DNA of 49,646 nucleotides. Origin: Anaerovorax odorimutans. Its GTDB lineage: Bacteria; Bacillota; Clostridia; Peptostreptococcales; JAAYPU01. Each line of letters begins with the position of its first letter. The first letter of the stretch is position 1. The stretch covers positions 1-49,646 of the forward strand of contig JAENZQ010000027.1 in assembly GCA_016841185.1 (NCBI GenBank), in the 5' to 3' direction. Under the pieces are notes generated by a model. That model had not been told where the DNA came from. It made no database searches and saw only the letters and a program-made list of their open reading frames with translations. This document shows, one piece after another, positions 27,522 to 46,351 of the stretch. The position numbers were made by a program, and so were the translations under genes.

Positions 27522-28292
27522 CTATCCGCCTATTGCATTAGTAATTACTTTTGCAGTTTCTTTTATTTTATTGACATATTCATCTATTTTGTCTTCCGTT
27601 ATTCTGGTAATAGGCCCGGAGATACTGACCGCTCCAACCAACTCTTTTCTATGGTTATATACAGGAACAGCAATACATCTTAAACCAATTTCCACTTCCT
27701 GATTATCTGTACTATATCCTTTTATTTTAATCTGTTCAATATCTTCTTTTAATTTATTAAAATCAGTAATGGTATTATTAGTATATTTAACGAAATTAGA
27801 ATCTTTGATATCATTTAATTCCTGTTCGGTTAAATGGGCCAGAACCATTTTTCCTACAGCGGTACAGTGCCTTTCAGCACGTTTTCCCACATGGGAAATA
27901 ATATTAAAAGATGTAGGCCCTTCAACTTTCTCTACATAAACAGCATCCATATCATCTCTCATAACCAGATGTACGGTCTCTTTAACCTCTTCCGCCAGTT
28001 TTTTCAAATAGGGTTTTGCCAATTCTCTGAGTTCAAGGCTTGTCTCAAAAATCTGCCCTATTTCAAATATTTTTAAACCCAGCTTATATTTACTTGTGGA
28101 TTCGTTAAAATCCAGATATCCCCTGTGATAGAGAGTATTGATCAATCCGTAGCAAGTGCTTTTTTTTAGTCCTAGCCTTTGTGCCAACTCTGTTACGCCT
28201 ATTTCTTTATCGGTTTTGCTGAAACATTCCAATATATTCAAAGCTCTTTCCACGGATTGTACAATAGTCCCTTTATCTTCCTGCACTCTCAT
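27522..28292 (-). CDS. IclR-family transcriptional regulator
   Basis: The 256 residues have an N-terminal winged helix (10-75: SVERALNILECFSKTDKEIGVTELAQRLGLKKSTCYGLINTLYHRGYL) and a C-terminal effector domain (85-250) with the AVGKMVLAHL and NQEVEIGLRCIAVPVYNHR signatures. IclR proteins usually repress, and sometimes activate, degradation pathways for acids and aromatic or sugar compounds. The gene is the last of the island, 31 bases after the DUF1537 kinase, so it is probably co-transcribed with the pathway. Its candidate operator is the 19-bp palindrome found three times between 42 and 46.2 kb. The effector is likely a pathway intermediate. Confidence 0.9.
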   Translation of the reverse strand: MRVQEDKGTIVQSVERALNILECFSKTDKEIGVTELAQRLGLKKSTCYGLINTLYHRGYLDFNESTSKYKLGLKIFEIGQIFETSLELRELAKPYLKKLAEEVKETVHLVMRDDMDAVYVEKVEGPTSFNIISHVGKRAERHCTAVGKMVLAHLTEQELNDIKDSNFVKYTNNTITDFNKLKEDIEQIKIKGYSTDNQEVEIGLRCIAVPVYNHRKELVGAVSISGPITRITEDKIDEYVNKIKETAKVITNAIGG

Positions 28293-29763: not shown

Positions 29764-29783
29764 CTAAACACCCACCCTTATTG

Positions 29784-30791: not shown

Positions 30792-30804
30792 TGTCTTTCC
30801 TCCT

Positions 30805-31677
30805 TTATTTTCGCAGCATTCTCATAGCTACTTCTTCTCCTACAGCTTTAGCTGCTGATGTCATAATATCCAGATTTCCGGAATATTTTGGCAAATAATC
30901 CCCGGCACCTTCTATTTCCAACATTACGGTAACTTTATTACCATCAAAAATTGGAGGAACCTTCAATGTGTATCCGGGAACATACTTCTTTACCTTTGCA
31001 ACCATTTTCTCTACAGCTAATGTAATGGCTTCTTTATCCAGATTTTTAACTTGAGTATATACGGTGTCTCTCATAATTAAAGGAGGCTCTGCCGGATTTA
31101 AAATTATAATCGCTTTTCCCCTGTCTGCTCCTCCGACTTCTACCAGACCTCTTGCAGTTGTTTCAGTAAATTCATCTATACTTGCTCTGGTTCCGGGTCC
31201 GGCACTTAAGCTTGCAATTGTTGCAACGATCTCAGCATATTCCACATCAGCAACTTCATTGATAGCTGCAACAATAGGTGTTGTTGCCTGTCCGCCGCAA
31301 GTCACCATATTAATATTTGTTTCATCTAAATGTTGATTAATATTGACAGCCGGAATAACATAAGGGCCGACAGCCGCAGGTGTCAAGTCAATTGCAATTT
31401 TATTATCGTCTGCCAGCAGCGGAGCATGGGCTTGATGAGCTCTTGCACTGGTTGCGTCAAATACAATCTTAATATCTTTATTACCTATAATCCCCTCAAC
31501 GCCTTTATCTATTGCCGTAATCCCATTTTTACGAACGATCTTTAATCCTTTTGAATTAGGATTGGCACTAACTACTGAATCCACTTCTATGTAGTCACTT
31601 CTCATCAATTTAAACATTAAATCAAGCCCAATATTTCCCGGACCGATTATTGCTGCTTTTACTTTATTGTTCATCAT
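30805..31677 (-). CDS. mhpF: Acetaldehyde dehydrogenase (acylating)
   Basis: This enzyme oxidises acetaldehyde to acetyl-CoA with NAD+ and CoA. The Rossmann motif is at [11 protein letters not shown] (10-20) and the catalytic cysteine at Cys127 ([11 protein letters not shown]). The [22 protein letters not shown] segment is also typical of the MhpF/DmpF/BphJ family. At 290 residues it is slightly shorter than its relatives (about 300-315). The gene lies between an IlvD-type dehydratase (24 bases) and mhpE (13 bases), with an AGGAGG site. Two adjacent ATG codons (31677 and 31674) are both possible starts. Related enzymes can use propionaldehyde as well. Confidence 0.94.
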
Positions 31678-31701
31678 AATTCCTCCTTTTCTCTGACTTA
31701 T

Positions 31702-33378
31702 TTAATATTTAATAACTGCTCCTTCATTAGCTGATGAAACCAGTTTTGAATAAACGGACAAATACCCTCTTTTATATCTTGGCTCAGGCCTCTTCCATCT
31801 GGATAGCCTTTGCTGAAGTTCCTTTTCACTTATATCAAGCTTTATAATTCCGTTGACCACATCGATCACGATTATATCTCCATCTTCAACAACTGCTATG
31901 GGTCCGCCCTCTGCTGCTTCAGGAGAAATATGACCTACAAAACAGCCATTATTGGTTCCGGAAAATCTGCCATCCGTAATCAAGGCCGTTGTTTTATTCA
32001 ATCCTAAACCATAAAGATATTTCATAGCCTTATACATTTCTCTCATTCCGGGTCCACCCTTGGGTCCTTCATATCGAATCACCACTACGTTGCCGTCTTT
32101 AATTTCTCTGTTTAAAATAGCTTCTTCCGCTTCTTCTTCGGAATCATACACTTTTGCTGTCCCTGCAAATATTTGTACAGAAGGATCGATTGCTCCGGGC
32201 TTACTGATACCGGTATTTGGTGCTAAATTGCCTCTCATTACAGCAACCCCTCCTGTAAAACCGAAAGGATTTTCCATGTCTTTGATGATTTCAGGGTTTT
32301 CCGGAAATTTATATTTGTATTCTTCTATATTCCTCTTCAGGCTTTTTCCCGAACATGTCATAACATCCGTATCCAATACAGACTTCATTTTTTCCATTAC
32401 TCTCGGTATGCCTCCTGCCATCCAGAAATCTTCCATATTCCATTTTGAAGCCGGATTTACCTTTGCCACCTGAGGGACTTCCTTACTCAGTGAATCAAAC
32501 TTTTCCAGCACATCAATATCCGCCTCAGCCTCATAGGCAATAGCGGTCAGGTGCATGACGGCATTGGTAGATCCGCTGGTCCCCATACAGACTTTTATGG
32601 CATTTTCTATGGATTTTTCATTGATAATCTGGCGACTGCTGATATTCTCTTGAACAAGCTCACAAATAGCCATACCCGTATCCAATGCAATACGAATCCT
32701 GTCCGGGTGAGATACAGGAATCAATGCCCCTCCGGGCAAAGTCATTCCCAAAGCTTCCGACAATGCACACATAGTATTGGCCGTTCCATAGAATGAACAA
32801 GATCCGCATGAAGGACAGCAGTTTTCTTCAAGATCAAGATATTCTTTTTCGGTTATTGTTTCTTTCTTAAGCATACCCAAACCTTCGGAGACAGAAGTCA
32901 AATCGGATTTCCTGCCTGCAAATTCCGCACCTCCAAGCATGGGCCCTCCCGGCAGCAGGATTGCCGGAATGTCTAACCGGGCTGCCGCCATAAGCATACC
33001 TGGAACAATTTTGTCGCACGATCCCAATAAAACAATGGCATCCAACTGATGGGCTTCTGCCATCACCTCTATATCATTGGCAATCAATTCACGGGAAGGA
33101 AGGATATAATGCATCCCCTTATGCCCTTGTGCTGTACCATCACAGGCACCGATGACACCAAACTCAACAACCGTTCCGCCGCCCCGATAAACACCTCTTT
33201 TTACATATTCCGCTATTTGATTTAAATTAAAATGTCCGGGAACCAGAGTGTTCCAAGAGTTGGCAATACCTATGATCGGTCTTTCCAAATCCTCGTCCGA
33301 ATAACCCAAAGATTTATAGACCGCACGGTTCATGGAAAACTCCGGACGCTTCAAAATATTTTTACTGCGTGTTGCCAT
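31702..33378 (-). CDS. IlvD/Edd family dehydratase 1 (dihydroxy-acid or sugar-acid dehydratase)
   Basis: This is a 558-residue iron-sulfur hydro-lyase that would convert a 2,3-dihydroxy acid into a 2-keto acid. Cluster-type cysteines are Cys121 (SCDKIVPGM) and the CCPSCGSC group (187-194). A PGH replaces PCN at the first position (NTLVPGH, 45-49), as in the E. coli IlvD type rather than typical [2Fe-2S] enzymes. Cys79 (GACDGTAQGH) may contribute. The C-terminal active-site signature DGRFSGTNNG is present. It could be the branched-chain amino acid enzyme, but its place between mhpF and a second dehydratase argues for sugar-acid catabolism. A 2,3,4-trihydroxypentanoate would give the MhpE substrate directly. 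Confidence 0.85.
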   Translation of the reverse strand: MATRSKNILKRPEFSMNRAVYKSLGYSDEDLERPIIGIANSWNTLVPGHFNLNQIAEYVKRGVYRGGGTVVEFGVIGACDGTAQGHKGMHYILPSRELIANDIEVMAEAHQLDAIVLLGSCDKIVPGMLMAAARLDIPAILLPGGPMLGGAEFAGRKSDLTSVSEGLGMLKKETITEKEYLDLEENCCPSCGSCSFYGTANTMCALSEALGMTLPGGALIPVSHPDRIRIALDTGMAICELVQENISSRQIINEKSIENAIKVCMGTSGSTNAVMHLTAIAYEAEADIDVLEKFDSLSKEVPQVAKVNPASKWNMEDFWMAGGIPRVMEKMKSVLDTDVMTCSGKSLKRNIEEYKYKFPENPEIIKDMENPFGFTGGVAVMRGNLAPNTGISKPGAIDPSVQIFAGTAKVYDSEEEAEEAILNREIKDGNVVVIRYEGPKGGPGMREMYKAMKYLYGLGLNKTTALITDGRFSGTNNGCFVGHISPEAAEGGPIAVVEDGDIIVIDVVNGIIKLDISEKELQQRLSRWKRPEPRYKRGYLSVYSKLVSSANEGAVIKY

Positions 33379-33393
33379 GCCATTACTTCCTTT

Positions 33394-35115
33394 CTATTCG
33401 TCCCATTCTAAATAGGCACCTTTTATGGGCGATACCGCAAGGGTCTGGAATAATCCGAGTGCCCCTTTTCGATCTTTCTCGGGCTTTTTCCAGCCTTTCT
33501 TTCTTTCTGCCAGAACATTCTGTATTTCTTCTTCGGAACAAGGTTTGCCATTAATCCCAACAATATTAATTTTTCTGTTATGGATATCCACATGGATCAA
33601 ATCCCCATCTTCTACCAACCCAATAGGACCGCCGGCAGCTGCTTCCGGTGATACATGACCGATGGCCGGTCCTCTGGTGGCTCCGGAAAATCTCCCGTCA
33701 GTGATCAAAGCAACTGTTGAAACTAATTCCGGATTATTGTATATGCCTTCGGTGGGCTTTAACATTTCAGGCATTCCATGGCCTCTGGGCCCTTCATAAC
33801 GAATAATTACCACATCTCCCGGTTTGATTTGTCCCGAATAAATCGCTTCAAAGGCATCTTCTCCACAATCAAATGTCTTTGCAGGTCCTGTATGATCATA
33901 CATGGCCGGATCTACGGCAGCATGTTTTACTACAGACCCTTCCGGAGCCAGATTGCCATAAAGAACAGCCATCCCGCCTCCTTTTTTATAAGGCTTGCTT
34001 ACCGGATTTATAATATCCCGGTATCCTACTCCATAATTATTTAAATATCCTTCTGCAGTCTTGAAATAACCGCTTTTTTCAAGTTCATCAAGATTTTCGC
34101 CAACTGTTTTACCGGTAACCGTTAAGGCATCCATATGCAGGTAATCGCTGATTTCTCTCATCAGGGCAGGCACACCTCCGGCAAACCACAGCAATTGTGT
34201 CGGCCATTTACCGCTTGTTTTCATATTGACCAGCACAGGAATTTTTTCATGGATTTCTTCAAATAAATCTACCGGTACATCCAGGCCCAATTCATGCGCA
34301 ATAGCCGGTAAATGCAAAGTGGCATTTGTTGAGCCCGATACAGCAGCATGAATCATAATCGCATTCTCAAATGCTTTCTTTGTCATGATTTTGCTTGGTG
34401 TCAGCCCTTCTTTGATCATTTCCGCCACACGTGCTCCTGCATCATAGGAAAGGTGCTCTAAACGATTTATTCCCGTCGGCATGATGGCGTTGCCGGGAAG
34501 GCTCATTCCTAGTGATTCGGACATAAGCTGCATGGTGCTCGCTGTTCCCATAAACTGGCAAGCCCCACAAGAAGGACAGGAATTCACCTGCTCCACCAGC
34601 AAATCTTCTGTTTTAAATTCTCCTCTATTTCTTTTTTCACCTAAATCATACATTTTTTCCGAGGACTGAAAATTCGGCCCGGGAAGCATCGCTCCTCCGG
34701 AAATATGAATCCCCGGCATATCCAGCCTGCCTAATGCTTTTAAGTGTGCCGGTATGGATTTGTCACAGCTTGAAACAAGAACTATACCGTCAAAAGGAGA
34801 ACTGGTTGCATGAACCTCCACCATCATGGCGATCATTTCTCTTGACAGCAAGGAATAGCTCATGCCCTCATATCCCATGGCAATTCCGTCACACATGTCT
34901 GTCACAGTATATACGCCCGGCTTACAGCCATTAGTATATAAAGAAACTCTGGCTAAATCCACAAGCTTATCCAAGTGGTAGCTTCCCGGGTGGCTTTCAC
35001 CGAATACGCTATCAATCAACACCTGCGGCTTATCAAGATCTTTTAGCGTCCAGCCTGTTCCCAGCCTTAAAGCATCACCCTGTGCATTTAGAACTCTCAT
35101 TTTTTGACTTCTCAT
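33394..35115 (-). CDS. IlvD/Edd family dehydratase 2
   Basis: A second iron-sulfur dehydratase of 573 residues, clearly diverged from its neighbour. Cys117 (SSCDKSIPAH) and Cys180, Cys183, Cys186 (SCPSCGAC) are the cluster cysteines. Cys75 (DMCDGIAMGYEGM) corresponds to Cys79 of the partner. The N-terminus has SVFGESHPGSYHL where IlvD proteins have the NSxxxxxPGH motif. DGRFSGATRG is the C-terminal substrate motif. It starts 31 bases after the hpaI-type aldolase and 15 bases lie between it and dehydratase 1. A substrate that yields a 2-keto-3-deoxy acid for the HpaI aldolase is the simplest assignment. It is not a shortened duplicate. Confidence 0.85.
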   Translation of the reverse strand: MRSQKMRVLNAQGDALRLGTGWTLKDLDKPQVLIDSVFGESHPGSYHLDKLVDLARVSLYTNGCKPGVYTVTDMCDGIAMGYEGMSYSLLSREMIAMMVEVHATSSPFDGIVLVSSCDKSIPAHLKALGRLDMPGIHISGGAMLPGPNFQSSEKMYDLGEKRNRGEFKTEDLLVEQVNSCPSCGACQFMGTASTMQLMSESLGMSLPGNAIMPTGINRLEHLSYDAGARVAEMIKEGLTPSKIMTKKAFENAIMIHAAVSGSTNATLHLPAIAHELGLDVPVDLFEEIHEKIPVLVNMKTSGKWPTQLLWFAGGVPALMREISDYLHMDALTVTGKTVGENLDELEKSGYFKTAEGYLNNYGVGYRDIINPVSKPYKKGGGMAVLYGNLAPEGSVVKHAAVDPAMYDHTGPAKTFDCGEDAFEAIYSGQIKPGDVVIIRYEGPRGHGMPEMLKPTEGIYNNPELVSTVALITDGRFSGATRGPAIGHVSPEAAAGGPIGLVEDGDLIHVDIHNRKINIVGINGKPCSEEEIQNVLAERKKGWKKPEKDRKGALGLFQTLAVSPIKGAYLEWDE

Positions 35116-35146
35116 AAAAACACCCCGCTTTCTAAGTTAAACATAT

Positions 35147-35914
35147 TTACAAAGCTTTTATTTCTTCAACTAATTTTCGTGATGATTCGTAAAAAATACC
35201 TGTGTCAATATAGGTGCTCAAGTATTGTATGCCCATATCTTTCTGCCTTTTTATATTTTCAGGCGTATCGGCAAATGAACCTACCGCTATGCCTTTATTT
35301 CTTGCCTTTTTTGTAATGGTTTCTATTGTTTTTAATACCTCCGGATGAGAAACCTGACCGGTAAGGTTCAATGCCTGGGACAAATCATAGGGCCCCAGAA
35401 ATAATACATCTATATCCGGCGTATCAAGGATCGCATCGATGTTTTCAACGCCTCCTTTACCTTCCACCTGAAGAACAACTAATGTATTTTCATTTGCCAT
35501 TTTAAAATACTGATCCCGAGGGATATTCGAATACTCGGCATTATGAGTAAACCTGCACACCCCTCTGTTTCCTTTGGGATGAAAATAGGATGCTTTTACA
35601 GATCCTGCAGCCATTTCTTCACTGTTTATCTGAGGAATCTGAACTCCTGCCGCCCCCGTATCCAATGCCCGAAGAATCATAGTTTCAGAATTTTCTCTAA
35701 CACGGATTATCGGTGATATTCCGACCATTCTTGCTGTCCTAACCAGGTTTTCTGCTTGATAGACTTCCAATGGGCCATGTTCCAGGTCAATGATTATAAA
35801 GTCAAACCCTGCATATCCGATCATCTCTATGATAGCTTGCTCAGCCATCCTGACAAAAGGCCCGGCCACATATTCTCCCTGCTTCAGTTTCTTTTTTATA
35901 TTATAAATATCCAT
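35147..35914 (-). CDS. HpcH/HpaI-type class II aldolase
   Basis: A 255-residue metal-dependent aldolase. Residues match HpcH/GarL: general base His46 (DLEHGP), pyruvate-binding Arg71 (IIRVREN), and metal ligands Glu151 (VEGKGG) and Asp177 (GPYDLS). The family cleaves 2-keto-3-deoxy-4-hydroxy acids to pyruvate and an aldehyde: succinic semialdehyde (HpaI), tartronate semialdehyde (GarL) or lactaldehyde (YfaU). The ribosome site GGGAGG is close to the ATG. Flanked by TRAP genes and a dehydratase, it most likely acts on the product of the dehydratase. A tartronate semialdehyde product would suit the GarR-like reductase of the cluster. Confidence 0.9.
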   Translation of the reverse strand: MDIYNIKKKLKQGEYVAGPFVRMAEQAIIEMIGYAGFDFIIIDLEHGPLEVYQAENLVRTARMVGISPIIRVRENSETMILRALDTGAAGVQIPQINSEEMAAGSVKASYFHPKGNRGVCRFTHNAEYSNIPRDQYFKMANENTLVVLQVEGKGGVENIDAILDTPDIDVLFLGPYDLSQALNLTGQVSHPEVLKTIETITKKARNKGIAVGSFADTPENIKRQKDMGIQYLSTYIDTGIFYESSRKLVEEIKAL

Positions 35915-36012: not shown

Positions 36013-37332
36013 CTACATTAAATTGACTAAACATGTGGAAAGAGCCGGAAATGCCATCAATATAATTAGTGCAATAAACATCATGATTAAAAACGGGAAC
36101 GAACCTCTGAAAATTTCCTCTACTCCCATTCCACTATCCCCTACATCGCTTAAAGCAGATTTTATGGTATATACGGATAACCCAAAAGGAGGCGTCAATA
36201 AGACGGTTTCAATTGCTACAATGGACACAATCCCAAACCAGATAAGGTCCATGCCAAAAGCACTTACTATGGGACACATTAAAGGCATGGTTAACAACAA
36301 GATTGAAGTTGAGTCCAAAATACATCCGAGAATAATCATAATAAGCATAAACACTGCAATTATCATCATTGGGGCAACCTGTAACGATGTCACATAGTCT
36401 CCCATTATTCCAACCACACCGCTGATTGCAAGCATTCTTGAATACATTTGTGCGGAAATTAAAAGAAACAGTATACTTCCGGTTGTAATACCGGCCTCCA
36501 GAAATGTATCCCACAATAGTTTTAATTTGAATTTACCCTTGATGATGACTAAAAGAAATGCCCCAAATGCGCCTACGCCACCGGCTTCGGTGGGTGTGAA
36601 AAATCCCGCCCATATACCTCCTAACGTTATGACGACCAAAGCTAAAATCGACCATGTCTTAAAAACCTTTTTGAAAACACTATCATTGAATTCTTCTTGT
36701 CCTTTGCCCTGAATAATACCTGGCTTTACCCTTACCAGAGTGATAATACATACAATAAACAATACTGATAATAAAATCCCGGGTATAACACCTGCTACAA
36801 ATAGTTTTCCTATTGAAACCTCTGCCAGCATTCCATATACGATCATTAATATACTTGGCGGGATCAACATCCCCAATACGGAACTGCCGGCCACCGTACC
36901 TACTGCAAATCTTTTATTATATCCCAGTCGTGTCATTTCGGGCACTGCAATTTTAGTAAACACAGCAGCAGAAGCAATACTGACACCGGTAATAGCTGCA
37001 AAGATAGCATTTGCAATAACAGTTGCCACTCCTAATCCGCCCTTTATTCTTCGCAATAAAGCATTGGCGGCATCATACAATTCTGCACTTGCTCCGGAAA
37101 GATTGGCTAAAAGCCCCATAAGTACAAAGAGGGGGATTACACCGAATACATATTCCCTTATGGAGCTGTATGCAGTCGTTCCTAATATATTAATTGCAAT
37201 ATCAAATTTACCGGTGGTCAGGAAAATTCCTACGATGCTCATAATCATCAATGATACTGCTATATGGAATCCAAATATTATTAAAACCAGTAATAATCCC
37301 AATGATATCAATCCAACAGTTATTGGTTCCAT
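36013..37332 (-). CDS. dctM: TRAP transporter large permease (DctM), system 1
   Basis: A polytopic membrane protein of 439 residues with about twelve hydrophobic segments. It has the DctM pattern: LGMLIPPSILMIVYGMLAEVSIGKLFVAGVIPG, FTPTEAGGVGAFGAF and LTPPFGLSVYTIKSA near the C-terminus. It forms the sodium-coupled transport channel of a TRAP system. It starts 16 bases after dctQ1 with an AAAGGGTG site. It is similar to, but clearly different from, DctM2. A 98-base gap precedes the aldolase. Confidence 0.94.
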   Translation of the reverse strand: MEPITVGLISLGLLLVLIIFGFHIAVSLMIMSIVGIFLTTGKFDIAINILGTTAYSSIREYVFGVIPLFVLMGLLANLSGASAELYDAANALLRRIKGGLGVATVIANAIFAAITGVSIASAAVFTKIAVPEMTRLGYNKRFAVGTVAGSSVLGMLIPPSILMIVYGMLAEVSIGKLFVAGVIPGILLSVLFIVCIITLVRVKPGIIQGKGQEEFNDSVFKKVFKTWSILALVVITLGGIWAGFFTPTEAGGVGAFGAFLLVIIKGKFKLKLLWDTFLEAGITTGSILFLLISAQMYSRMLAISGVVGIMGDYVTSLQVAPMMIIAVFMLIMIILGCILDSTSILLLTMPLMCPIVSAFGMDLIWFGIVSIVAIETVLLTPPFGLSVYTIKSALSDVGDSGMGVEEIFRGSFPFLIMMFIALIILMAFPALSTCLVNLM

Positions 37333-37348
37333 AATTATTTCACCCTTT

Positions 37349-37849
37349 CTATTTATCTGCTATTAATAATTTTTTGACAGTTCTTATTAATAACGTTAAA
37401 TATTCTCCTAAAATCAACAGGGATCCAAAAAGTATGATGAAACGCATTGGATAAGTAGGCACACGCAAGGCGCCTTCTCCTTCAAACTCCTTTATTTCCA
37501 CTGAAGTAATAAATAAATCCCAACTTGAATAAATCAACATAACAAACAAAAATATTCCTAATAAATACGATAATAGATCTAAAATGTTTTTTCCTTTTTC
37601 CGAAAATCGGTCATAAATGATTGTTGATCTGACATGTCTGCCGACCATGAGCACATATCCGATTTGTAAAAACGCAATTCCAATAATTGAATTGCTAACG
37701 ATCTCTGGAGTCCCTATCATGGGGTGATTAAAGAAAACTCGTCCGCCTACATCATTGATAATGACAAGCATCAGCAAAAAAATCCATATTGAACCAATCC
37801 CGTTGAAAAAGGATAAAACTTTGTCATAGCTAAGTTTTTTTTGTACCAT
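37349..37849 (-). CDS. dctQ: TRAP transporter small permease (DctQ), system 1
   Basis: The 166 residues form four hydrophobic helices, as expected for the small TRAP subunit, with the RVFFNHPMIGTPEIVSNSIIGIAFLQIGYVLMVGRHVRSTII stretch that typifies DctQ. It links the receptor to the DctM channel. A good GGAGGTGG site precedes its ATG. It follows a long hairpin after dctP1 and is itself followed by dctM1. DctQ2 shares the same motif, so the two systems are paralogous. Confidence 0.92.
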   Translation of the reverse strand: MVQKKLSYDKVLSFFNGIGSIWIFLLMLVIINDVGGRVFFNHPMIGTPEIVSNSIIGIAFLQIGYVLMVGRHVRSTIIYDRFSEKGKNILDLLSYLLGIFLFVMLIYSSWDLFITSVEIKEFEGEGALRVPTYPMRFIILFGSLLILGEYLTLLIRTVKKLLIADK

Positions 37850-37882
37850 TTTTCCACCTCCAGAACATTTGCTTGTTTAAAG

Positions 37883-37915
37883 CTTGGAAGGAAGAGATAA
37901 ACTCTTCCTTCCAAG
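37883..37915 (-). promoter_or_regulatory. Intercistronic hairpin between dctP1 and dctQ1
   Basis: A 14-bp perfect stem (CTTGGAAGGAAGAG at 37883-37896 and CTCTTCCTTCCAAG at 37902-37915) with a 5-base loop lies between the receptor and membrane subunit genes. The following sequence has only a weak U-run (CTTTAAA), so it is more likely to protect the dctP mRNA or cause partial termination than to end transcription fully. The second TRAP system has a matching structure. Confidence 0.75.
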
Positions 37916-37922
37916 TTTATTC

Positions 37923-39047
37923 CTACAGTTCCCAATCTCGAGGCATTATGAATCCTCTTTCTACAAGTTTGGCAAAATACGCTTTAACAATTTCAGTTCC
38001 CGGATAATCTAACGAATTTAACTCTGCTGCAAGTTCTCCCGGAACATTAGGAATCTTTGCAACCCATTCTTCTTTGGCTTCCTGTGATAATTGAGTAATG
38101 GTCACGCCTTCAGATTCCATGGCAGCCAAATCACTTTCATAAAGATCTTTTGTATATTGTGCTTCCAGCATGGTCATGTTTTCGCCTTCTTCAAGCATGA
38201 TCTGCTGCACCTCTTCAGGCAAACTGTTCCATGTATCCATATTGATGGTAAGGCCGCCTACGATCTGTACACCAAAGTCGGCTAATAACAGATAATCAGA
38301 TACTTCGTGGATTTTAAACCTGTACATTGCGCCTGTCGGATTGATAAAGCCTTCGTAAACGCCTGTCTGCATACTGGTATATCCTTCATTTAAGTTGGAC
38401 TGAACACCAACAGTGCCTGTCCCTTCGATCCATTTAAGATTTGCACCTGCTCCGGCAATTTTCTTGTTTTCCAGATCCGATACTTCATCTACAGGAAAAG
38501 TAGTGAACAGATTATAATTATCTGAAACTGCCAAACCTAAAAACTTTTGATTATACTTTTCAAAATCAGCTTTAAATTCAGGATATTCTTCATACAGCTC
38601 CATAGCTGCTTCTGCTACAACGATGGGATCAGGACTCTGGAAAGGCATTCTGTAAGTCATTCCTTCAAGCATCAGCTTTGTAGGTTCAAATACATATACG
38701 ATCATGCCTACATCTAAAAGCCCGCCTTCAACTGCTTCAAGGACCTCTCCTAATTTTGCAACAGTACCGCCATAAGCTTCTGTCCATTGAATCTCATAGT
38801 CTGTTTCCGCAGCAACGCGTTCCTGAACATTTTTCTGGAAAAAATGTGTTACGCCATAGGTCCATTGTACGGTATCGGCCGGATGGCCTGCACCTACTAC
38901 CATTTCAATAACTTCTTTCCCGCTGCTGTCTCCGGCATCGCTGTCTGTATCCTGCTGGGATCCGCCGCATCCGCTGATGGAAGCCATCAACAGAGCCATT
39001 ACGCAGATAAGTGATAATAATTTTGAAAATCTCCTCATCTTAAACAT
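37923..39047 (-). CDS. dctP: TRAP transporter substrate-binding lipoprotein (DctP), system 1
   Basis: The 374 residues begin with a lipoprotein signal peptide: positive start, hydrophobic core and an ISGC lipobox with Cys27. A DctP fold follows: EMVVGAGHPADTVQW strand, the DLENKKIAGAGANLKWIEG hinge region, then a QTGVYEGF helix. Typical DctP proteins have an arginine in the K-[IM]-R motif at the hinge that binds the substrate carboxylate. Here the position is alanine (KIAG). DctP2 has glycine there. A neutral ligand or a different carboxylate contact is therefore possible. The gene begins with GGAGGG and is first of the dctPQM operon. Confidence 0.92.
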   Translation of the reverse strand: MFKMRRFSKLLSLICVMALLMASISGCGGSQQDTDSDAGDSSGKEVIEMVVGAGHPADTVQWTYGVTHFFQKNVQERVAAETDYEIQWTEAYGGTVAKLGEVLEAVEGGLLDVGMIVYVFEPTKLMLEGMTYRMPFQSPDPIVVAEAAMELYEEYPEFKADFEKYNQKFLGLAVSDNYNLFTTFPVDEVSDLENKKIAGAGANLKWIEGTGTVGVQSNLNEGYTSMQTGVYEGFINPTGAMYRFKIHEVSDYLLLADFGVQIVGGLTINMDTWNSLPEEVQQIMLEEGENMTMLEAQYTKDLYESDLAAMESEGVTITQLSQEAKEEWVAKIPNVPGELAAELNSLDYPGTEIVKAYFAKLVERGFIMPRDWEL

Positions 39048-39114: not shown

Positions 39115-40191
39115 TCACTCTTCAGGAGTTCCATATTCCCAAGATACAGCTGCTCGATATCTTTCTACATAATCCGGATAAGTATATCTTCCCATATCCT
39201 TGTCTCTCGGATATACAAACTGTGCACCAGGTTGCAGGATCACTGTCTTAAGATCCGTTCGATGCTCTTTTCTTTTCTTGTCGACAATATATTCTAAGGT
39301 AGTAGGATCTTCCTGAGAATTTGCCCAATTATCATAATGATAAGGCACCAGATATTTCGCCCCTACTGCCTGAGCCACTCTGAAAGCTTCAAAGGGTGAC
39401 ATTTTATCCGTAGCTCCCGGAGGCGCATAGCCCATATTTGTAAATACGACATCAATGTCATACTTTGCAAATGCAGCATAGCCATTATTATATAATGTAT
39501 CTGCCAGGAACAACATATTTCCTCCGTCTGTTTTGAAAAGGAAGCTCACGGCAACATCCTGAACTTTTTGAAGATCCTCCGGTGTTTTTGCACCGGTCAT
39601 AGCTGCCATAGTATCATAATTCAGAAGTATTTGTACTTCGGTATTACCAACTTTTATGGTATCCCCCGGCACGACTTCTATAATCCTATTTTCAGGTACA
39701 TTAAACTTTCTGAATTTTTCTGTTGTTACTTTTGGCCCGATATAAGGTGCATCTGTTGTTCCTAACGTTGCCTTGATGGTATAAAAGTCGCAATGATCCT
39801 GATGATGATGACTGCAGAACACACCATCCAATTTTTTAAACTCCCATGGATCTACCATCATAGGTCCAAGCCTGAGCCATTCGATTGTCGGTGCTCCGCT
39901 GGTCCTGCAAACTCCACAGTAAGAATATTCCGTATAAATGGAAGGGCCTGCATAGTTGTCGATCAGGAAAATATCTCCACTGGAGGTTTTCATTCCAAAA
40001 GATGGGCCTCCAAACCACCAGAGCGCTACCTGCCCTTTTTCCACTTTATAATTCTGCATTTCCAGATTCAATAAAGTGCCCCATTCCGGGAATACTTCAC
40101 GCAGCCAATCATCCTTCGTAATGTTGCGTTCCTCATTCAGGTAAGCACCTGACATGATTCCTCTGCCGTCACTCTTAGCTACTTTTGACAT
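39115..40191 (-). CDS. UlaG-like metallo-beta-lactamase-fold lactonase
   Basis: The 358 residues carry the MBL metal motif HxHxDH (His128, His130, Asp132, His133). The whole N-terminal region resembles UlaG, the L-ascorbate-6-phosphate lactonase: DDWLREVFPEWGTLLNLEMQNYKVEKGQVALWWFGG matches its WILSTFPEWGSWLN pattern and the region around it. The C-terminal VPYHYDNWANSQEDP and VYPRDKD parts also align. No PTS or other ula genes are present, and TRAP uptake does not phosphorylate, so a non-phosphorylated lactone is more likely. A strong AAAGGAGGAG site precedes the ATG. It stands between a beta-hydroxyacid dehydrogenase and dctP1. Confidence 0.85.
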   Translation of the reverse strand: MSKVAKSDGRGIMSGAYLNEERNITKDDWLREVFPEWGTLLNLEMQNYKVEKGQVALWWFGGPSFGMKTSSGDIFLIDNYAGPSIYTEYSYCGVCRTSGAPTIEWLRLGPMMVDPWEFKKLDGVFCSHHHQDHCDFYTIKATLGTTDAPYIGPKVTTEKFRKFNVPENRIIEVVPGDTIKVGNTEVQILLNYDTMAAMTGAKTPEDLQKVQDVAVSFLFKTDGGNMLFLADTLYNNGYAAFAKYDIDVVFTNMGYAPPGATDKMSPFEAFRVAQAVGAKYLVPYHYDNWANSQEDPTTLEYIVDKKRKEHRTDLKTVILQPGAQFVYPRDKDMGRYTYPDYVERYRAAVSWEYGTPEE

Positions 40192-40388: not shown

Positions 40389-41264
40389 CTAAAGCTTATT
40401 TTCTTTTTCCATAATTTTAATAATGGCGGAATGATCCTCTTTTCCTATGCCCTCTTCTTTTGCCTGATCATAAAAGTGTACGGCCGCTTCCGTTATAGGC
40501 ACTTTATAACCGACACTTTTTGCCATTTCCAAGGTCAACTTCAAATCCTTCAGCATTAACTGAAGACAGGCAGCTGACTCAAATTTTTTCGGGATAATAT
40601 ATTCAGGAACCGAACGGTCCAGCATACGGCTGCTGCCCCATGATACTGTAAGCAGATTAAACAGTTTTTCCATATCTAACTCTGCTTTCTCGGCAATCAA
40701 CATGGCTTCGCATACCGTTGCTTGATTTACACCTGTTAATAGTTGATTGATCAATTTGGTCGCTTGTCCATTACCGATTTTTCCCATATGGTTATATGTA
40801 CCGGAAAAAGACTTTATTACAGGTTCCGCTTTCTTATAAGCATCATAGTCCCCACCGATCATTACGGTCAAAGTTCCAGCTTCTGCACCACCGATCCCTC
40901 CGCTCACCGGGGCATCGAGATAGTATGCGCCTTCTTTTTCGAATAAGCTTTCCATTTCTTTTTCACAATCCAGAGAAACCGTACTGCAGTCAAATATCAC
41001 AGCACCTTCTTTAACAGCTTCAGCAGCTTTCTGGCATACATCCTTCACGGCAAAATCCGCTACCAGAGACATGCCTATAATATCTGCATCTTTAACTGCT
41101 TCCTGAATAGTATCAGCTGATTTGGCACCCTTTTCCACAAGTTTTTCAACATTGGCCCAAAAGGAATCTTTCAAATTCCAAACCGTCAAATCATATCCAG
41201 CTTTCAGTATATTGGATGCAATACCATTTCCCATGGCGCCTGTTCCTAAAAAAGCAACTTTCAT
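40389..41264 (-). CDS. Beta-hydroxyacid dehydrogenase (GarR / 3-hydroxyisobutyrate dehydrogenase family)
   Basis: The 291 residues start with the NAD(P) motif GTGAMG (7-12). Ser121 (DAPVSGGIGGAEAG, 118-130) binds substrate, and Lys170 (GNGQATKLINQ) is the catalytic lysine, with Asn173 beside it. The family includes tartronate semialdehyde reductase (GarR), L-threonate dehydrogenase (LtnD) and 3-hydroxyisobutyrate dehydrogenase. I start at the ATG at 41264 because GGAGG lies 7-8 bases upstream and the sequence MKVAFLGTGAMG begins there. The open frame extends 21 codons further up without a matching site. GarR-type activity would reduce tartronate semialdehyde from the HpaI aldolase to glycerate. 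Confidence 0.88.
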   Translation of the reverse strand: MKVAFLGTGAMGNGIASNILKAGYDLTVWNLKDSFWANVEKLVEKGAKSADTIQEAVKDADIIGMSLVADFAVKDVCQKAAEAVKEGAVIFDCSTVSLDCEKEMESLFEKEGAYYLDAPVSGGIGGAEAGTLTVMIGGDYDAYKKAEPVIKSFSGTYNHMGKIGNGQATKLINQLLTGVNQATVCEAMLIAEKAELDMEKLFNLLTVSWGSSRMLDRSVPEYIIPKKFESAACLQLMLKDLKLTLEMAKSVGYKVPITEAAVHFYDQAKEEGIGKEDHSAIIKIMEKENKL

Positions 41265-41361: not shown

Positions 41362-42189
41362 TTAATCTTTCTTATACATATATGAACATTTATAAGGACA
41401 ATCTCCGCATTTCTTTTTCCATGTATCTACAGATTCTTCACCTTTTACTCTGTTAAATAAACAGACTGCCTTTTCAACATTTTCTTTTTCTCCTGAAATG
41501 CTTAATGTAACAGAACCTTCCGATCCGCCGACCCCTCCTGATGCAACATGAACAGCGGTTGTATCCGTCAGCATTTTTATGGCTTCGATTTCTGTAATAA
41601 CCATTCCGTTTGTTACGGAAATATACCCGCAGCCTCTTCCGTAAGAATAATCATAGTTATGAATGCCTTTGACGGCTCTTCCTGCATCTATAACAGAAGC
41701 CACCATTTTTTCAAGACCTACCGGGATAATGAACAAACTTCCCTGAGCAGCTATCTTGGGCAGTGCCATCATAATATTGCCGCCTTCCGGATGAGCCAGT
41801 AAAAATCCTGCATTACCTTCCTTATCAACCGCATTGGCGCCTTTAATATATATGTCATCGGGGCCAAACTCTGCCATCCATTTTTCCAACTCCTCATAAT
41901 CAGAGATGTTTTCGTCTGATTGAGCAGCTTTCCCTTTATGGATCAATATGGATCTTATCCGGCTGTCCGGAGACTGACACTGAACACCATTAGTAATAAC
42001 TCCACAGGGAAATCTCTCTGTATCCATATGAACACCTAAAATTTCTTCTGCAACATAAGCGGTAGTGGTTCCATTGGAAATCAGAATTTTATTCTCATGA
42101 AGTGCGGCTTTTACCTCCGGTATCTGCGCTACGCCTATACCGATCAATCTTTTTGATTCTGACGGTGTTAAAGATATCAGAATATTCAT
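41362..42189 (-). CDS. Conserved-looking hypothetical protein of 275 residues, function unknown
   Basis: I do not recognise this family. Two features stand out. The N-terminal part has NGTTTAYVAEEILG and DDIYIKGANAVDKEGNAGF, which faintly recall the phosphate/CoA loop and GADEVD motif of the NagB/RpiA/CoA-transferase superfamily, so a related fold is possible. The protein ends with a cysteine cluster, CGDCPYKC, resembling a metal or iron-sulfur site. A repeated glycine-rich ASGGVGGSEGSVTL stretch lies near 230. The ATG at 42189 has AGGAGG 8 bases upstream. The candidate IclR operator overlaps the region just upstream of that site. It sits between dctM2 and the dehydrogenase, so a role in the same pathway is likely. 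Confidence 0.8.
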   Translation of the reverse strand: MNILISLTPSESKRLIGIGVAQIPEVKAALHENKILISNGTTTAYVAEEILGVHMDTERFPCGVITNGVQCQSPDSRIRSILIHKGKAAQSDENISDYEELEKWMAEFGPDDIYIKGANAVDKEGNAGFLLAHPEGGNIMMALPKIAAQGSLFIIPVGLEKMVASVIDAGRAVKGIHNYDYSYGRGCGYISVTNGMVITEIEAIKMLTDTTAVHVASGGVGGSEGSVTLSISGEKENVEKAVCLFNRVKGEESVDTWKKKCGDCPYKCSYMYKKD

Positions 42190-42203: not shown

Positions 42204-42222
42204 TGTTCTATATTATAGAACA
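42204..42222. promoter_or_regulatory. 19-bp palindrome TGTTCTATATTATAGAACA, copy 1 (candidate IclR operator)
   Basis: A perfect inverted repeat of 9 bp around a central T lies directly upstream of the ribosome site of the 275-residue gene. The same 19 bases occur at 45701-45719 and 46154-46172. IclR regulators bind palindromes of about this size. The operon's iclR gene is the only candidate regulator of that type in the window. A promoter is not clear here. Confidence 0.7.
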
Positions 42223-42319
42223 GTGTTCCTAATTATCATTATATCTCATAGAATTCATATTGTCCATATATCTCTTAAGATTTAGTAATCAGCAGATAAC
42301 AGCCGGTTGAATAATCAAA

Positions 42320-43648
42320 TCACATCATATTTACAAGATACATAACAAGATCCGGTACTAAAACAAGAATCAGCAAAACGGTAAACATAGCCAGCAGGAA
42401 CGGAAATGAGCCTGCAAAAATATCCTCTACGGTTACATCGTCCATTTCTTTGATGCCTCCAAGTGCTGATTTCACCGTATAGACTGAAATACCAAATGGC
42501 GGTGTCAGCAAGCCCGTCTCTGTTGCAATGATACCGACAATACCAAACCAGACCAGATCCAATCCGAAGGATCGGATGATAGGAATCATAACCGGCATGG
42601 TGAGAAGTATAATGGATGTAGGATCCAGAATACAGCCCAGCGCAACGAGTATCCCCATAAATATCAGTACAATAACAATTTCCGGAACTGCAAGCCCCAC
42701 CACAAATTCCTGTACCAAGTTGATGGACCCGCTTAAAGCAAGAGCTTTTGAATACATCTGTGCAGTTACAAGAAGAATCAATACGCTTCCTGTAGTAGAA
42801 CCCGCAGAAAGAAGTGTCTGCCAGACAGCTTTCGGATATGCTTTTCTTTTAATAAATGCAATGATAAGTGCTCCAAGTGCACCGATTCCTCCAGCTTCGG
42901 TTGGTGTAAAGAACCCAAGCCAGATACCGCCCAAAGAAATAATAATAAGTACTGTAATGGCCCATGGTTTTAATACGATATTCCAAAAATTCTTTCTTTC
43001 TTCTTCTGTTAAAGGCTCTGCGGGAGGAATATCCTCTTTTTTTACAACCGCAATAATTCTTATAACGATAATAAATGCGAGAGACATGAGAATACCGGGG
43101 ATGACCCCCCCAACAAACAAAGCACCGATGGAAACCTCCGACACCGATCCATAAACAATCATCAATATACTGGGAGGAATCAACATGCCAAGTATAGAGC
43201 TTCCTGTAATCGTTCCTACCGCAAGTTTTTTGTTATAGCCCAGACGCAGCATCTGAGGTACGGCAATCTTTGTAAAAACCGCAGCAGATGCAATAGATAC
43301 TCCGGTAATGGCAGCAAAAATAGCATTAGCAATAACCGTTGCAATACCTACACCGCCTCTGACTCTCTTCAAAAGGAGACTGGCGGAATTATACAACTCT
43401 GTGCTGGCTCCGGACAAATTGGCAAAAAGGCCCATCAGCACAAATAACGGAATAACGCCAAAAGTATATTCCCGTATGGAACTGAAAGCTGTAGTACCAA
43501 GTAGTTTTACAGCAATCTCAAAGTTATCCATTGCAAAAAACATGGTAACGACACTTGTCAGCATAAGGGAAACAGAAAGATGTACACCGCTGACGACCAG
43601 AATAACAAGCAGTATCAAAGTGACAAAAAGAATCATCAAAGCACTCAT
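42320..43648 (-). CDS. dctM: TRAP transporter large permease (DctM), system 2
   Basis: The 442-residue membrane protein has the same segments as DctM1: LGMLIPPSILMIVYGSVSEVSIGALFVGGVIPG, FTPTEAGGIGALGAL and LTPPFGISVYTVKSALGG. It begins within the dctQ2 stop codon (ATGA overlap), so translation is coupled. It ends 130 bases before the 275-residue gene. Similarity with DctM1 is strong over the entire length, consistent with an old duplication of the transporter. Confidence 0.94.
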   Translation of the reverse strand: MSALMILFVTLILLVILVVSGVHLSVSLMLTSVVTMFFAMDNFEIAVKLLGTTAFSSIREYTFGVIPLFVLMGLFANLSGASTELYNSASLLLKRVRGGVGIATVIANAIFAAITGVSIASAAVFTKIAVPQMLRLGYNKKLAVGTITGSSILGMLIPPSILMIVYGSVSEVSIGALFVGGVIPGILMSLAFIIVIRIIAVVKKEDIPPAEPLTEEERKNFWNIVLKPWAITVLIIISLGGIWLGFFTPTEAGGIGALGALIIAFIKRKAYPKAVWQTLLSAGSTTGSVLILLVTAQMYSKALALSGSINLVQEFVVGLAVPEIVIVLIFMGILVALGCILDPTSIILLTMPVMIPIIRSFGLDLVWFGIVGIIATETGLLTPPFGISVYTVKSALGGIKEMDDVTVEDIFAGSFPFLLAMFTVLLILVLVPDLVMYLVNMM

Positions 43649-44190
43649 AGAACATCTCCCCCCTTATGGATATCATTTTCTTTAGTTTTACCTTTTAGTT
43701 TTAAGATTTTTTTAATAAAAATAAATATATATTCAACAATCATTAAAATTGATCCAATAATAATTGTTGCTCTTGCAGGTGTTGTAGGAACACGCAGTGC
43801 ACCTTCTCCTTCAAATTCACCTACGCTTAATGCTTTAATAAAATCAGGCCAGCTGGACTTGATCAACAGTATAAACATTACAATTCCGATAATAATGGCA
43901 ATTAGCTCCAGAATCGTCCTTAGACCCGGTTTTATTTTATCCAGAAGAATCGTGCTTCGGACATGATCGCCTCTATGAAGAACAAAAGGTATTTCAAGAA
44001 AAGCGATTGCAATTATAGAGTTACTTACCAGCTCGGGAGTCCCTTTAAAAGGCATGTTGAAGAATACTCTTCCGAATACATCTACCGCAATCAGTATCAT
44101 GAGAACAAATATCCAAAAACAGGCAATGGCGTTCAGTATTTCCAGAAGCTTTGTTTTCCCTTTGTCCAATTTTAAAAACGAATTATTCAT
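43645..44190 (-). CDS. dctQ: TRAP transporter small permease (DctQ), system 2
   Basis: A four-helix DctQ subunit with RVFFNMPFKGTPELVSNSIIAIAFLEIPFVLHRGDHVRSTIL, matching DctQ1. I start at the ATG at 44190 (181 residues), because AAAGGA lies 9 bases ahead. The ATG 9 bases upstream directly adjoins that site. A charged tail (KGKTKENDIHKGGDVL) ends the protein. The last codons overlap dctM2. Confidence 0.92.
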   Translation of the reverse strand: MNNSFLKLDKGKTKLLEILNAIACFWIFVLMILIAVDVFGRVFFNMPFKGTPELVSNSIIAIAFLEIPFVLHRGDHVRSTILLDKIKPGLRTILELIAIIIGIVMFILLIKSSWPDFIKALSVGEFEGEGALRVPTTPARATIIIGSILMIVEYIFIFIKKILKLKGKTKENDIHKGGDVL

Positions 44191-44269
44191 ATTTTTCATT
44201 CCTTTCGCTGTAACCCAAGATATAGCTGTAATTCATAGCATAGAAGAAATAAAAAACGATCATCTTGGA

Positions 44270-44307
44270 ATAATTGAGAGATAAGAAGCCTCTTATCTCT
44301 CAATTAT
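44270..44307 (-). promoter_or_regulatory. Intercistronic hairpin between dctP2 and dctQ2
   Basis: A perfect 17-bp stem (44270-44286 with 44291-44307, arms ATAATTGAGAGATAAGA) and a 4-base loop lies 23 bases after the dctP2 stop. No strong U-run follows. It mirrors the dctP1-dctQ1 hairpin, though the stems differ in sequence. Such structures commonly raise the amount of binding protein relative to the permease. Confidence 0.8.
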
Positions 44308-44329
44308 GACATTGTATCTATTGAGGTTT

Positions 44330-45445
44330 TTAATACTCCCAGTCTCTGATCTTTTCCTGCCCAAGTTTTTCAAGCTCGTTGAAATAGAAATCTGCCATTT
44401 CTCCGGCAGGATAGCCCATTTCTTCTAACTCTCCGATAAATTTTCCAAGTGAATTCGGTATTTTATTTGCCCATTCTTTCTGCTCTTCAACACTCAGCTG
44501 ATTCAGGGTTGCACCTTCAGACAGAGCCTTTTCAATAGCAGCATCATAAGTATTCATAACATACTCCGGAGATGTCTCGGTATAATTCTTCGCAGCTTCA
44601 ACAATGATCTCCTGTACTTCAGGCGGAAGTTTTGCATAAGAATCTTTGTTCATGATGAGTGCATTGGCAGGAAAGGCACCAAAGCTGGCATCAAGAATAT
44701 AAGGAGCTACTTCATGAACCTTCAGATTAATCGTTGAAACAGATGGCTGGATACCGACCTGATAAACGCCTGTCTGCAGACTTGTAAACATCTCCATCAG
44801 ATTCGATTGTACAGTTGCACATCCGCTGCCTTCTACCCACGTCAGGTTAGCACCTACTGCACCCACTTTGTATCCATCCAGATCATTTATGGAATTTATT
44901 TCATATGTAGAAAACATATTATAGGGTTCTGTAAATGCAATACCTAAGTACATAGAATTATATTCTTCAAAAATTTCAGTAAATTGTGGATATTCTTCAA
45001 ACAATGCTGTTAATGCCTGAGCTCCTAATTCTGCATCAGGAGATGCAAAAGGCATATAATAGAACATGTTCAACAGTTTCAATTTGGCAGGCTCTAACGG
45101 AAGAACCGTAATACCCATATCACAGATACCGGATTCTATTCCTTCCAATGCCTCTCCAAGTTTTAACATGGATCCGCTGAATCCTTTAATCCATTCAATC
45201 TCATAATCCGTATTCTCACTTACTTTTTGTGAAACTTCTCCGCAGAATGATTCGGATAAATAAGTGATCCATGGAGCAGTTTCAGGCTGGCCTCCGCTTA
45301 TTCGAAGCGTAATAGTTTCTTTTTCATTCGATGACGGATCTTCCGATGGTGTATCTGTACCGCCGCCGCAACCGGCCAGTAGCATCATTGCCACCATAAC
45401 ACAACTGATTAGTGCCAAAGTCTTACGAAACTTCTTTGATTTCAT
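44330..45445 (-). CDS. dctP: TRAP transporter substrate-binding lipoprotein (DctP), system 2
   Basis: The 371 residues begin with a lipoprotein signal peptide and a LLAGC lipobox, Cys26. DctP motifs follow: TLRISGGQPETAPW, the DLDGYKVGAVGANLTWVEG hinge and a LQTGVYQVGIQPS helix. The hinge arginine of typical DctP proteins is replaced by glycine (KVG). It shares stretches with DctP1, such as ANLxWxEGxG and the RDWE ending, so both belong to one atypical subgroup. The gene starts with AGGAGGG and is preceded by a long leader containing the duplicated element. Confidence 0.92.
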   Translation of the reverse strand: MKSKKFRKTLALISCVMVAMMLLAGCGGGTDTPSEDPSSNEKETITLRISGGQPETAPWITYLSESFCGEVSQKVSENTDYEIEWIKGFSGSMLKLGEALEGIESGICDMGITVLPLEPAKLKLLNMFYYMPFASPDAELGAQALTALFEEYPQFTEIFEEYNSMYLGIAFTEPYNMFSTYEINSINDLDGYKVGAVGANLTWVEGSGCATVQSNLMEMFTSLQTGVYQVGIQPSVSTINLKVHEVAPYILDASFGAFPANALIMNKDSYAKLPPEVQEIIVEAAKNYTETSPEYVMNTYDAAIEKALSEGATLNQLSVEEQKEWANKIPNSLGKFIGELEEMGYPAGEMADFYFNELEKLGQEKIRDWEY

Positions 45446-45699: not shown

Positions 45700-45893
45700 C
45701 TGTTCTATATTATAGAACAGCGTTTGTATTTTTGTATTTTAACTTTATCATACTTGTAGAAAAATGTCATTAACTTTTTTAAAAAAAATCAAAAAAATAA
45801 TTAATGGCATTTGCTCATAAATCCACTGATTTCAACCCTTTTCACAAGGTATACTTCGATAATAAGGAAAAATGTTACAGACAAATATGTATC
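45700..45893. repeat. Duplicated leader element, copy A (near dctP2)
   Basis: About 190 bases are repeated in the same orientation at 46153-46351 with mostly point differences. The first 21 bases are the extended palindrome CTGTTCTATATTATAGAACAG (45700-45720). The minus strand of the unit contains a -10-like TATGATAAAG about 30 bases before the palindrome. Transcription would then pass through the palindrome toward dctP2. No gene is encoded. Confidence 0.85.
45701..45719. promoter_or_regulatory. 19-bp palindrome, copy 2 (candidate IclR operator of dctP2QM)
   Basis: This is identical to 42204-42222 and is extended here by one more paired base on each side. It lies 255 bases upstream of dctP2, just downstream of a possible -10 box, a position suited to repression. 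Confidence 0.7.
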
Positions 45894-46152: not shown

Positions 46153-46351
46153 CTGTTCTATATTATAGAACAGCGTTTGTATTTTTGTATTTTGACTTTA
46201 TCATACTTGTAGAAGAATGTCATTAACTTTTTTTAAAAAAATCAAAAAATAATTGATGGTATTTGCTCATAAGTCCACTGATTTCAACCCTTTTCACAAG
46301 CTATACTTTGTTATTAATGAAAAATCTTACAAATAATTCGACAAATATGTA
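46153..46351. repeat. Duplicated leader element, copy B (next to the dctP remnant)
   Basis: This is the direct repeat of 45700-45893. Its palindrome (46153-46173) directly adjoins the dctP remnant. The two copies share stretches such as CATACTTGTAGAA, TTTGCTCATAA and CCACTGATTTCAACCC. Small differences suggest a moderately old duplication. Confidence 0.85.
46154..46172. promoter_or_regulatory. 19-bp palindrome, copy 3 (candidate IclR operator)
   Basis: Identical to the other two copies and kept perfectly even though the gene it once controlled has decayed. It is extended to 21 bp, as at 45700-45720. Confidence 0.65.

Follow-up and report, generated by a model that had tools for sequence, protein, structure and literature searches.

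The gene and its product

Which function does the 275-residue protein have that is encoded at positions 41362 to 42189 of the window (the whole stretch of 49,646 nucleotides analysed here), within an island that looks like a locus for the uptake and breakdown of sugar acids? A sequence-only reading had described it as an unrecognised protein with weak NagB/RpiA-like motifs and a C-terminal cysteine cluster, possibly heading a regulated unit of its own, and had offered an isomerase, a CoA transferase or an iron–sulfur protein as candidate functions. The gene is real and its coordinates hold, the strand being the minus strand. The coding sequence (41362..42189, stop codon included) is supported by the open frame, the translation and full-length homologues: it starts with an ATG at 42189, the last sense codon ends at 41365 and the stop codon occupies 41362–41364. 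Plus-strand frame 1 across the same positions is full of stops. The sequence AAGGAGG (42204–42198) precedes the ATG by 8 bases, and a GTG two codons upstream of the ATG is an alternative start that would yield 277 residues. All four motifs that had been pointed out (NGTTTAYVAEE, IKGANAVDKEGN, GGVGGSEGS and CGDCPYKC) are found in the translation. Recent gene transfer, as judged by base composition, was rejected because the GC content of the gene (0.406) does not stand out from that of the window (0.396).

Library searches

Nothing in Pfam, NCBIfam, PHROGs or the PDB sequences matches the protein credibly, and the description as unrecognised has stood: no well-characterised family emerged from the libraries searched. 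PHROGs gave weak matches (best E 0.015), the PDB sequence search with the single protein gave none, and PDB profile searches gave weak Rossmann-type matches headed by 6-phosphogluconate dehydrogenase (E 0.012 and 0.013), which was rejected as a relative because the matches stop at the GAN motif. An anthrax toxin subunit match in Pfam (13 bits, E 0.1, with a cut-off of 25) was set aside as chance. Helix-turn-helix models and iron–sulfur models from Pfam and NCBIfam did not match the protein, nor did PF02589 (LUD) from Pfam at E values up to 1, nor PF01144.

When 105 members of the family described below were compared with Pfam, there was no convincing family among the matches listed, and NCBIfam gave no convincing match to 8 members, the AroM part of a fusion aside. 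The commonest weak Pfam match was DeoRC (PF00455; 12 of the 105 members, best E 0.0032), in competition with Formyl_trans_N (6 of 105, best E 0.00093) and NAD_binding_2 (6 of 105, E 0.0017); ten clade III members scanned singly against Pfam showed DeoRC in no case. The gathering cut-off of PF00455 (31.8 bits) was not reached, the window protein having no match and the members only weak ones. PF01144 is absent from the 25 of 40 families listed for the 105 members, and BMC is absent from the Pfam families listed for them. A KH-, BMC- or ACT-like C-terminal part was discarded as well, the Pfam matches being weak and scattered (KH_1 in 4 of 105 members, ACT_AHAS_ss once). There were no relatives among the 96 stretches of viral contigs that fit the search pattern, and a plasmid search gave no family match. 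In the accessible portions of the open-access literature on the operon, the pathway and DeoRC-like novel families, nothing was found on the family. On sequence matches, it is left unnamed by the libraries used (Pfam, NCBIfam, PHROGs and PDB).

Distribution, phylogeny and gene neighbourhoods of the family

The search for homologues and their neighbours that had been proposed as a check brought up a real family and no named one. A scan of genome contigs gave two relatives and a partial third with 38–41% identity to the window protein. In a phylum-wide draw the family was present in 108 of 398 genomes, the organism's own included, yet among the Pfam matches listed it has no convincing model; 100 of the 108 positive genomes had one match row. 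The class draw gave 10 of 391 genomes (own included, with the same count for a larger profile), a draw of near relatives 4 of 98 (own included), and the protein was absent from both of the other genomes that belong to the organism's taxonomic family. It is therefore rare near this organism and common in other parts of the phylum.

The 96 regions fetched for further analysis are part of the places found in the phylum-wide search. Two regions (L112 and L114) were left out because picking of open reading frames yielded no homologue, L149, being identical to L116, was excluded from the 105-row alignment, and the partial L004 was used in small alignments only. A maximum-likelihood tree of 106 rows has three clades. 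Clade I comprises 15 rows (16 with the basal L126) and clade II 20 rows (21 with L145), both additions being our own placement from the basal forks. The window protein belongs to clade III, an open fork of 69 rows with support of 89/90, and is sister (96/96) to L120, whose branch was flagged as long.

Clade II is accompanied by a recurring gene set. Within 5 kb of its 21 loci we count genes for DUF917-like (14 loci), hydantoin/Asp-Glu-racemase-like (13), M29-like peptidase (11), PucR-like (11) and DUF1177-like (9) proteins, an OPT-like transporter (8) and a separate AroM (8); the AroM assignment is backed by a family call, and the other names are those that we presume from the sequences. The family domain is also fused to AroM in three genomes, in one gene represented by two loci (L006/L015, called by Pfam) and in L262 and L264, as judged from the sequence. 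In the accessible part of a 2024 paper (PMC11055893) AroM and DUF917 are reported to be enriched in cyclodipeptide-oxidase clusters without a cyclodipeptide synthase, racemase- and hydantoinase-like roles are suggested for the two, and isomerase activity is proposed for AroM; the unnamed family goes unmentioned in that part. The clade II relatives are located in, or fused into, AroM-containing hydantoin/peptide gene sets, whereas the window protein is a clade III member from a TRAP acid-sugar island.

Clade III has no constant operon partner, which speaks against a role restricted to acid sugars. Its widest neighbour cluster consists of ABC ATPases (16 of 69 loci), mostly several genes away, followed by a ribokinase-like cluster (9 of 69 loci); the neighbours of 14 loci were looked at in full.

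Fold and profile comparison

The structure prediction and fold search that had been suggested gave a moderate model, which led to RpiA, eIF2B and CoA-transferase chains. The AlphaFold2 model of the window protein, made from a four-row alignment, has a pLDDT of 62.5 and a pTM of 0.69, with residues 58–96 and the tail below a pLDDT of 50; a second model, that of a relative, turned out poor at a pLDDT of 50. In a Foldseek comparison with the PDB the 11 best matches were all RpiA (E 4.8e-5 to 2.4e-3), followed by a DUF162/LUD protein in twelfth place and then by MtnA-like, RpiA, eIF2B and ribose-1,5-bisphosphate isomerase structures; the top matches have TM-scores of 0.28–0.37 with an rmsd near 16 Å, and aminotransferases enter the list from E 0.019. 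The 50 matches listed by VIA have Z values of 8.3–9.9 over 135–167 residues at 3.5 to 5.9 Å. They name eIF2B, RpiA, ribose-1,5-bisphosphate isomerase and its kin, CoA-transferase subunits, the DeoR repressor 7l6l and MTHFS, which belong to one superfamily. The tool itself notes that Z values of 7 to 8 are typical of models lacking a clear match, and we therefore sought sequence evidence beside the fold matches.

For this purpose we drew IF-2B, CoA-transferase, RpiA, LUD and DeoRC sets from genomes of the phylum and aligned them with the family in hhalign. After length and clustering cuts there remained 20 of 23 loci for IF-2B, 23 of 30 for CoA transferase (two groups), 24 of 25 for LUD (two groups), 2 of 2 for RpiA and 27 of 30 for DeoRC; 24 clusters of neighbour genes, taken as unrelated by assumption, served as controls. 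The best of the seven profiles for the 105-row family was DeoRC (p 1.2e-5 over 114 columns) and the second-best were the two LUD groups (p 9e-4 and 1.1e-3), while the 24 families taken as unrelated gave p 0.018 or worse. The two CoA-transferase groups (PF01144; p 0.094 and 0.2), RpiA (0.27, from two sequences) and IF-2B (0.61) did not rise above this background. Between families known to share the superfamily, DeoRC found the two CoA-transferase groups at p 4.3e-6 and 1.4e-4, and several true superfamily pairs gave no signal, so that a missing signal is no evidence against kinship.

Each clade on its own also had DeoRC as the best of the seven profiles, in one and the same register (p 1.8e-3 for clade I, 1.7e-5 for clade II and 5.2e-5 for clade III), and one LUD group reached p 2.4e-4 against clade III. 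The 72 pairs of clades with unrelated families gave p 0.017 or worse; DeoRC itself reached p 0.006 once against the same 24 families, and the value for clade I alone is therefore weak. The DeoRC-like part starts about 10 residues after the N-terminus of the window protein. In the alignment, which stops before the PVGLEK motif, the KRLIGIGVA helix falls on the K..I helix of DeoRC, NGTTTAYVAEE on the GTT stretch and IKGANAVD on the IGTSGI stretch of that domain. Both families have a K..IA helix, then a GTT loop and then an N-G-like motif, in one register for all three clades. They differ in that the unnamed family lacks the helix-turn-helix and has an extra conserved C-terminal alpha/beta part, the invariant residues K161 and E200, and a cysteine tail.

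Taken at the level of the fold, the earlier NagB/RpiA-like hint was right, given the model matches and the DeoRC profile similarity, and the nearest sequence family is DeoRC. Model and profile support an assignment of the protein to the NagB/RpiA/CoA-transferase-like (ISOCOT) superfamily, and the profile similarity to DeoRC is an independent argument for this placement. The other members of the superfamily resemble the protein in different ways. LUD (PF02589, LutB/LutC) is of the same superfamily and shows weak profile similarity in the region of the GAN and PVGLEK motifs, but its cysteine arrangement is unlike that of the unnamed family; its conserved residues correspond to Y55, H201 and R204 of LutC (PMC3924224, from the portion available), which seem to lack counterparts in the unnamed family. 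The eIF2B/MtnA/ribose-1,5-bisphosphate isomerase group (PF01008) supplies the top VIA matches (Z as high as 9.9) but stands at p 0.61 in the profile comparison.

Conserved residues and the cysteine tail

The motifs that had been singled out are more than chance, because the GTT loop, GAN, E160-K161, E200 and the glycines of GG..G are invariant or nearly so in the 105-row alignment. The GTT loop (residues 40–43, GTTT; 42061..42072, minus strand) is the part that hhalign places on the GTT of DeoRC, with G40 in 104 and T42 in 103 of the 105 rows; K13 is found in 102. The asparagine of the GAN motif (residues 117–119; 41833..41841, minus strand) is present in 104 of 105 rows. Downstream of the stretch aligned with DeoRC follow E160-K161 of the PVGLEK motif (41707..41712, minus strand; 104 and 105 of 105 rows, respectively) and E200 (41590..41592, minus strand; 105 of 105), all three being conserved across the three clades. 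K116 is found without exception in clades I and III (85 rows), and another residue takes its place in at least 18 of the 20 clade II rows.

GAN aligns with DeoRC and also with the GAD of RpiA (PF06026), the family of the best Foldseek matches, though this last alignment is not significant (p 0.27). It puts K116 and N119 at the sites of the RpiA aspartates (DGADE motif), which we take to be catalytic. With these residues at the catalytic sites the known chemistry is not transferable, and the alignment suggests either that the chemistry differs from that of RpiA or that the pocket merely binds.

The C-terminal cluster CGDCPYKC (residues 261–268; 41386..41409, minus strand) has its three cysteines in the spacing C-x2-C-x3-C. 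We counted the tail cysteines of the family after motif-based removal of the core and find at least three in 67 of 106 members, the window protein included. All 21 members of clade II have them, 46 of 69 in clade III and none of the 16 in clade I. Of the 39 members with fewer than three, 37 have none and two have one or two. Since tails mostly have either at least three cysteines or zero, the tail is retained or lost as a unit, as expected of a metal-binding appendage, and its conservation makes metal binding plausible.

The island and its palindrome

A 17-bp perfect palindrome, GTTCTATATTATAGAAC, lies at 42205..42221 and is a candidate operator of the gene. Its place ahead of the gene is as the sequence-only reading had it: it sits between the ribosome-binding site, which it directly precedes, and a promoter-like TGGACA-17-TATAAT (42238..42266, minus strand; 11 of 12 consensus matches), a kind of site that shows no excess in the scanned region (25 found, 22.4 expected). 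Two further exact copies (45702..45718 and 46155..46171) are located upstream of the first TRAP operon. These three are the only exact copies in the 3.56-Mb genome, all within the island; allowing up to one mismatch, no further copy was found genome-wide, and a reversed control gave none. Shuffled windows contained on average 0.24 matches at up to three mismatches, and none of 100 shuffles had three. The candidate operator is common to the 275-residue gene and the first TRAP operon, as in a local regulon. Because the copies are confined to the island, upstream of the gene and of the importer, the two very likely form one jointly regulated set. The proposal that the gene opens a regulated unit of its own agrees with the island-exclusive candidate operator and the promoter-like site, the unit as such being a prediction from sequence.

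The palindrome is a candidate operator of a local IclR-type or AraC-type regulator. By its location the IclR-type protein (27522..28292, minus strand) is a candidate for reading it, and two adjacent AraC/Rob-like genes (46732–48860), upstream of the first TRAP operon, are the nearby alternatives.

The first TRAP importer (42320..45445, minus strand; PF03480 and PF06808) consists of DctP, a DctQ-like protein named from place and size, and DctM. Directly downstream of the 275-residue gene is a beta-hydroxyacid dehydrogenase resembling 3-hydroxyisobutyrate and L-threonate dehydrogenases (40389..41264, minus strand, start set at an internal ATG; PF03446 and PF14833); its matches to TIGR01692 (E 9.7e-62) and NF043037 (E 2.5e-60) are both below cut-off. 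Next come a UlaG-like, lactonase-like protein of the metallo-beta-lactamase fold (39115..40191, minus strand; NF008688 at 224 bits, cut-off 306) and a second TRAP importer (36013..39047, minus strand), with DctP called by PF03480 and the DctM and DctQ-like genes assigned by similarity to genes of a paralogous island. One island thus carries two TRAP importer sets, at 36013–39047 and 42320–45445. Within 28324..35914, on the minus strand, we find a HpaI/GarL-like aldolase, two IlvD/Edd-type dehydratases, an acetylating acetaldehyde dehydrogenase, a 4-hydroxy-2-oxovalerate aldolase and a D-threonate-kinase-like (DUF1537-type) protein; for the island aldolase, the second dehydratase and the kinase the model matches are below cut-off.

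Possible functions

We favour the reading, with a probability of roughly 0.55, that the protein is a ligand-binding, probably enzymatic relative of the DeoR sensor, free of the helix-turn-helix, that was recruited into acid-sugar catabolism. Lacking a helix-turn-helix, the unnamed family has in its stead a conserved C-terminal alpha/beta part, often with a short cysteine tail. Most likely the protein would work as a small-molecule-binding enzyme. Its pocket, presumably lined by the GTT loop, K13, the GAN motif, E160-K161 and E200, may receive an anionic ligand such as a sugar acid, a sugar phosphate or an oxo acid, and the likeliest reaction would be an isomerisation or a similar proton-transfer step; an isomerase, as in the sequence-only reading, is a possible function. 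The tail would likely hold a metal, be it zinc or an iron–sulfur cluster, or act as a redox latch, and the members without a tail suggest that the core can work alone. As the gene has its operator in common with the TRAP importer and forms a unit with the beta-hydroxyacid dehydrogenase, the protein probably acts at an early stage on an imported acid sugar. The island-exclusive operator sequence ties the gene to one TRAP importer, and the imported substrate should indicate the target of the protein.

Could the protein bind an effector and catalyse nothing? As a DeoR sensor without its DNA-binding half it would sense a sugar acid or sugar phosphate and act through protein partners. The DeoR sensor domain is indeed the nearest family, an asparagine occupies the site of the RpiA catalytic aspartate in 104 of 105 rows and likewise in three of four DeoRC proteins compared by eye, most positive genomes (100 of 108) have one copy, and clade III has no constant operon partner. 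In addition, one relative (L091, 1884–4013) is a 709-residue frame in which domains that we take to be of the HD type precede the family domain; the two parts are separate in its sister L084. However, E160, K161 and E200 are kept in three clades although they lie beyond the stretch aligned with DeoRC, the gene heads a catabolic unit, and three genomes carry fusions of the family domain with AroM. These fusions with a protein of proposed isomerase activity (PMC11055893) and the location in catabolic gene sets argue for an enzyme rather than a regulator, and we regard a purely sensory protein as a rather unlikely alternative.

Still less likely, and about equally so, are two more specific roles. 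The protein might replace OtnI as a 2-oxo-tetronate-type isomerase, converting the 2-oxo acid made by the dehydrogenase into the 3-oxo acid for the DUF1537-type kinase. The island does have L-threonate-dehydrogenase-like and D-threonate-kinase-like proteins, no OtnI was found among the island proteins scanned, and the fold houses sugar isomerases. Yet both the dehydrogenase and the kinase are below the model cut-offs (kinase 66.6 bits, cut-off 450), the scanned island proteins include two dehydratases and two aldolases instead of an OtnC, and the family members whose neighbours were examined are not tied to acid-sugar genes. Moreover, beside the four-step route LtnD-OtnI-OtnK-OtnC a three-step bypass exists that dispenses with OtnI (PMC12540250, in the part available). 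The other role is that of an iron–sulfur or LUD-like redox protein, with a LutB/LutC-like core and a tail cluster accepting electrons from a hydroxy acid. It would agree with LUD as the second-best profile (p 9e-4 and 1.1e-3, and 2.4e-4 for clade III), with the DUF162/LUD structure in twelfth place of the Foldseek list, with the 67 of 106 members whose tails have three or more cysteines and with the frequent association of LUD with iron–sulfur domains (PMC3924224, same portion). Against it, 39 of 106 members have fewer than three tail cysteines, including all 16 of clade I with none, the likeness to LUD is weaker than that to DeoRC, and no iron–sulfur model matches the window protein. For a CoA transferase we see hardly any chance: four subunit B chains appear at VIA Z values of 8.4–8.7, which reflects the shared fold, but the profile comparison (p about 0.09 and 0.2) is no better than for the 24 families taken as unrelated, and PF01144 matches neither the window protein nor appears among the families listed for the members. 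This proposal of the sequence-only reading was therefore rejected.

To extend the preferred reading, the DeoR-sensor relative with an enzymatic function, we venture tentatively that the family is a new ISOCOT enzyme family which joins the fold of the DeoR sensor to a detachable metal or iron–sulfur cysteine tail and catalyses an undescribed step. It might have a general role in many members of the phylum, an accessory one in the AroM-type sets and an acid-sugar role in this genome. The nearest kin are sensors and isomerases, and the function would show how the fold of the DeoR sensor moves between regulation and catalysis.

One observation stands against the favoured acid-sugar role. The same genome has a second, paralogous TRAP/UlaG-like/IlvD-like island (contig C14, L267), and this island has no copy of the 275-residue gene, which is single copy genome-wide. 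At E 1e-60 the UlaG-like protein is without a match in the other 390 genomes drawn from the class; within its own genome it has a paralogue of 49% identity, lying in the paralogous island.
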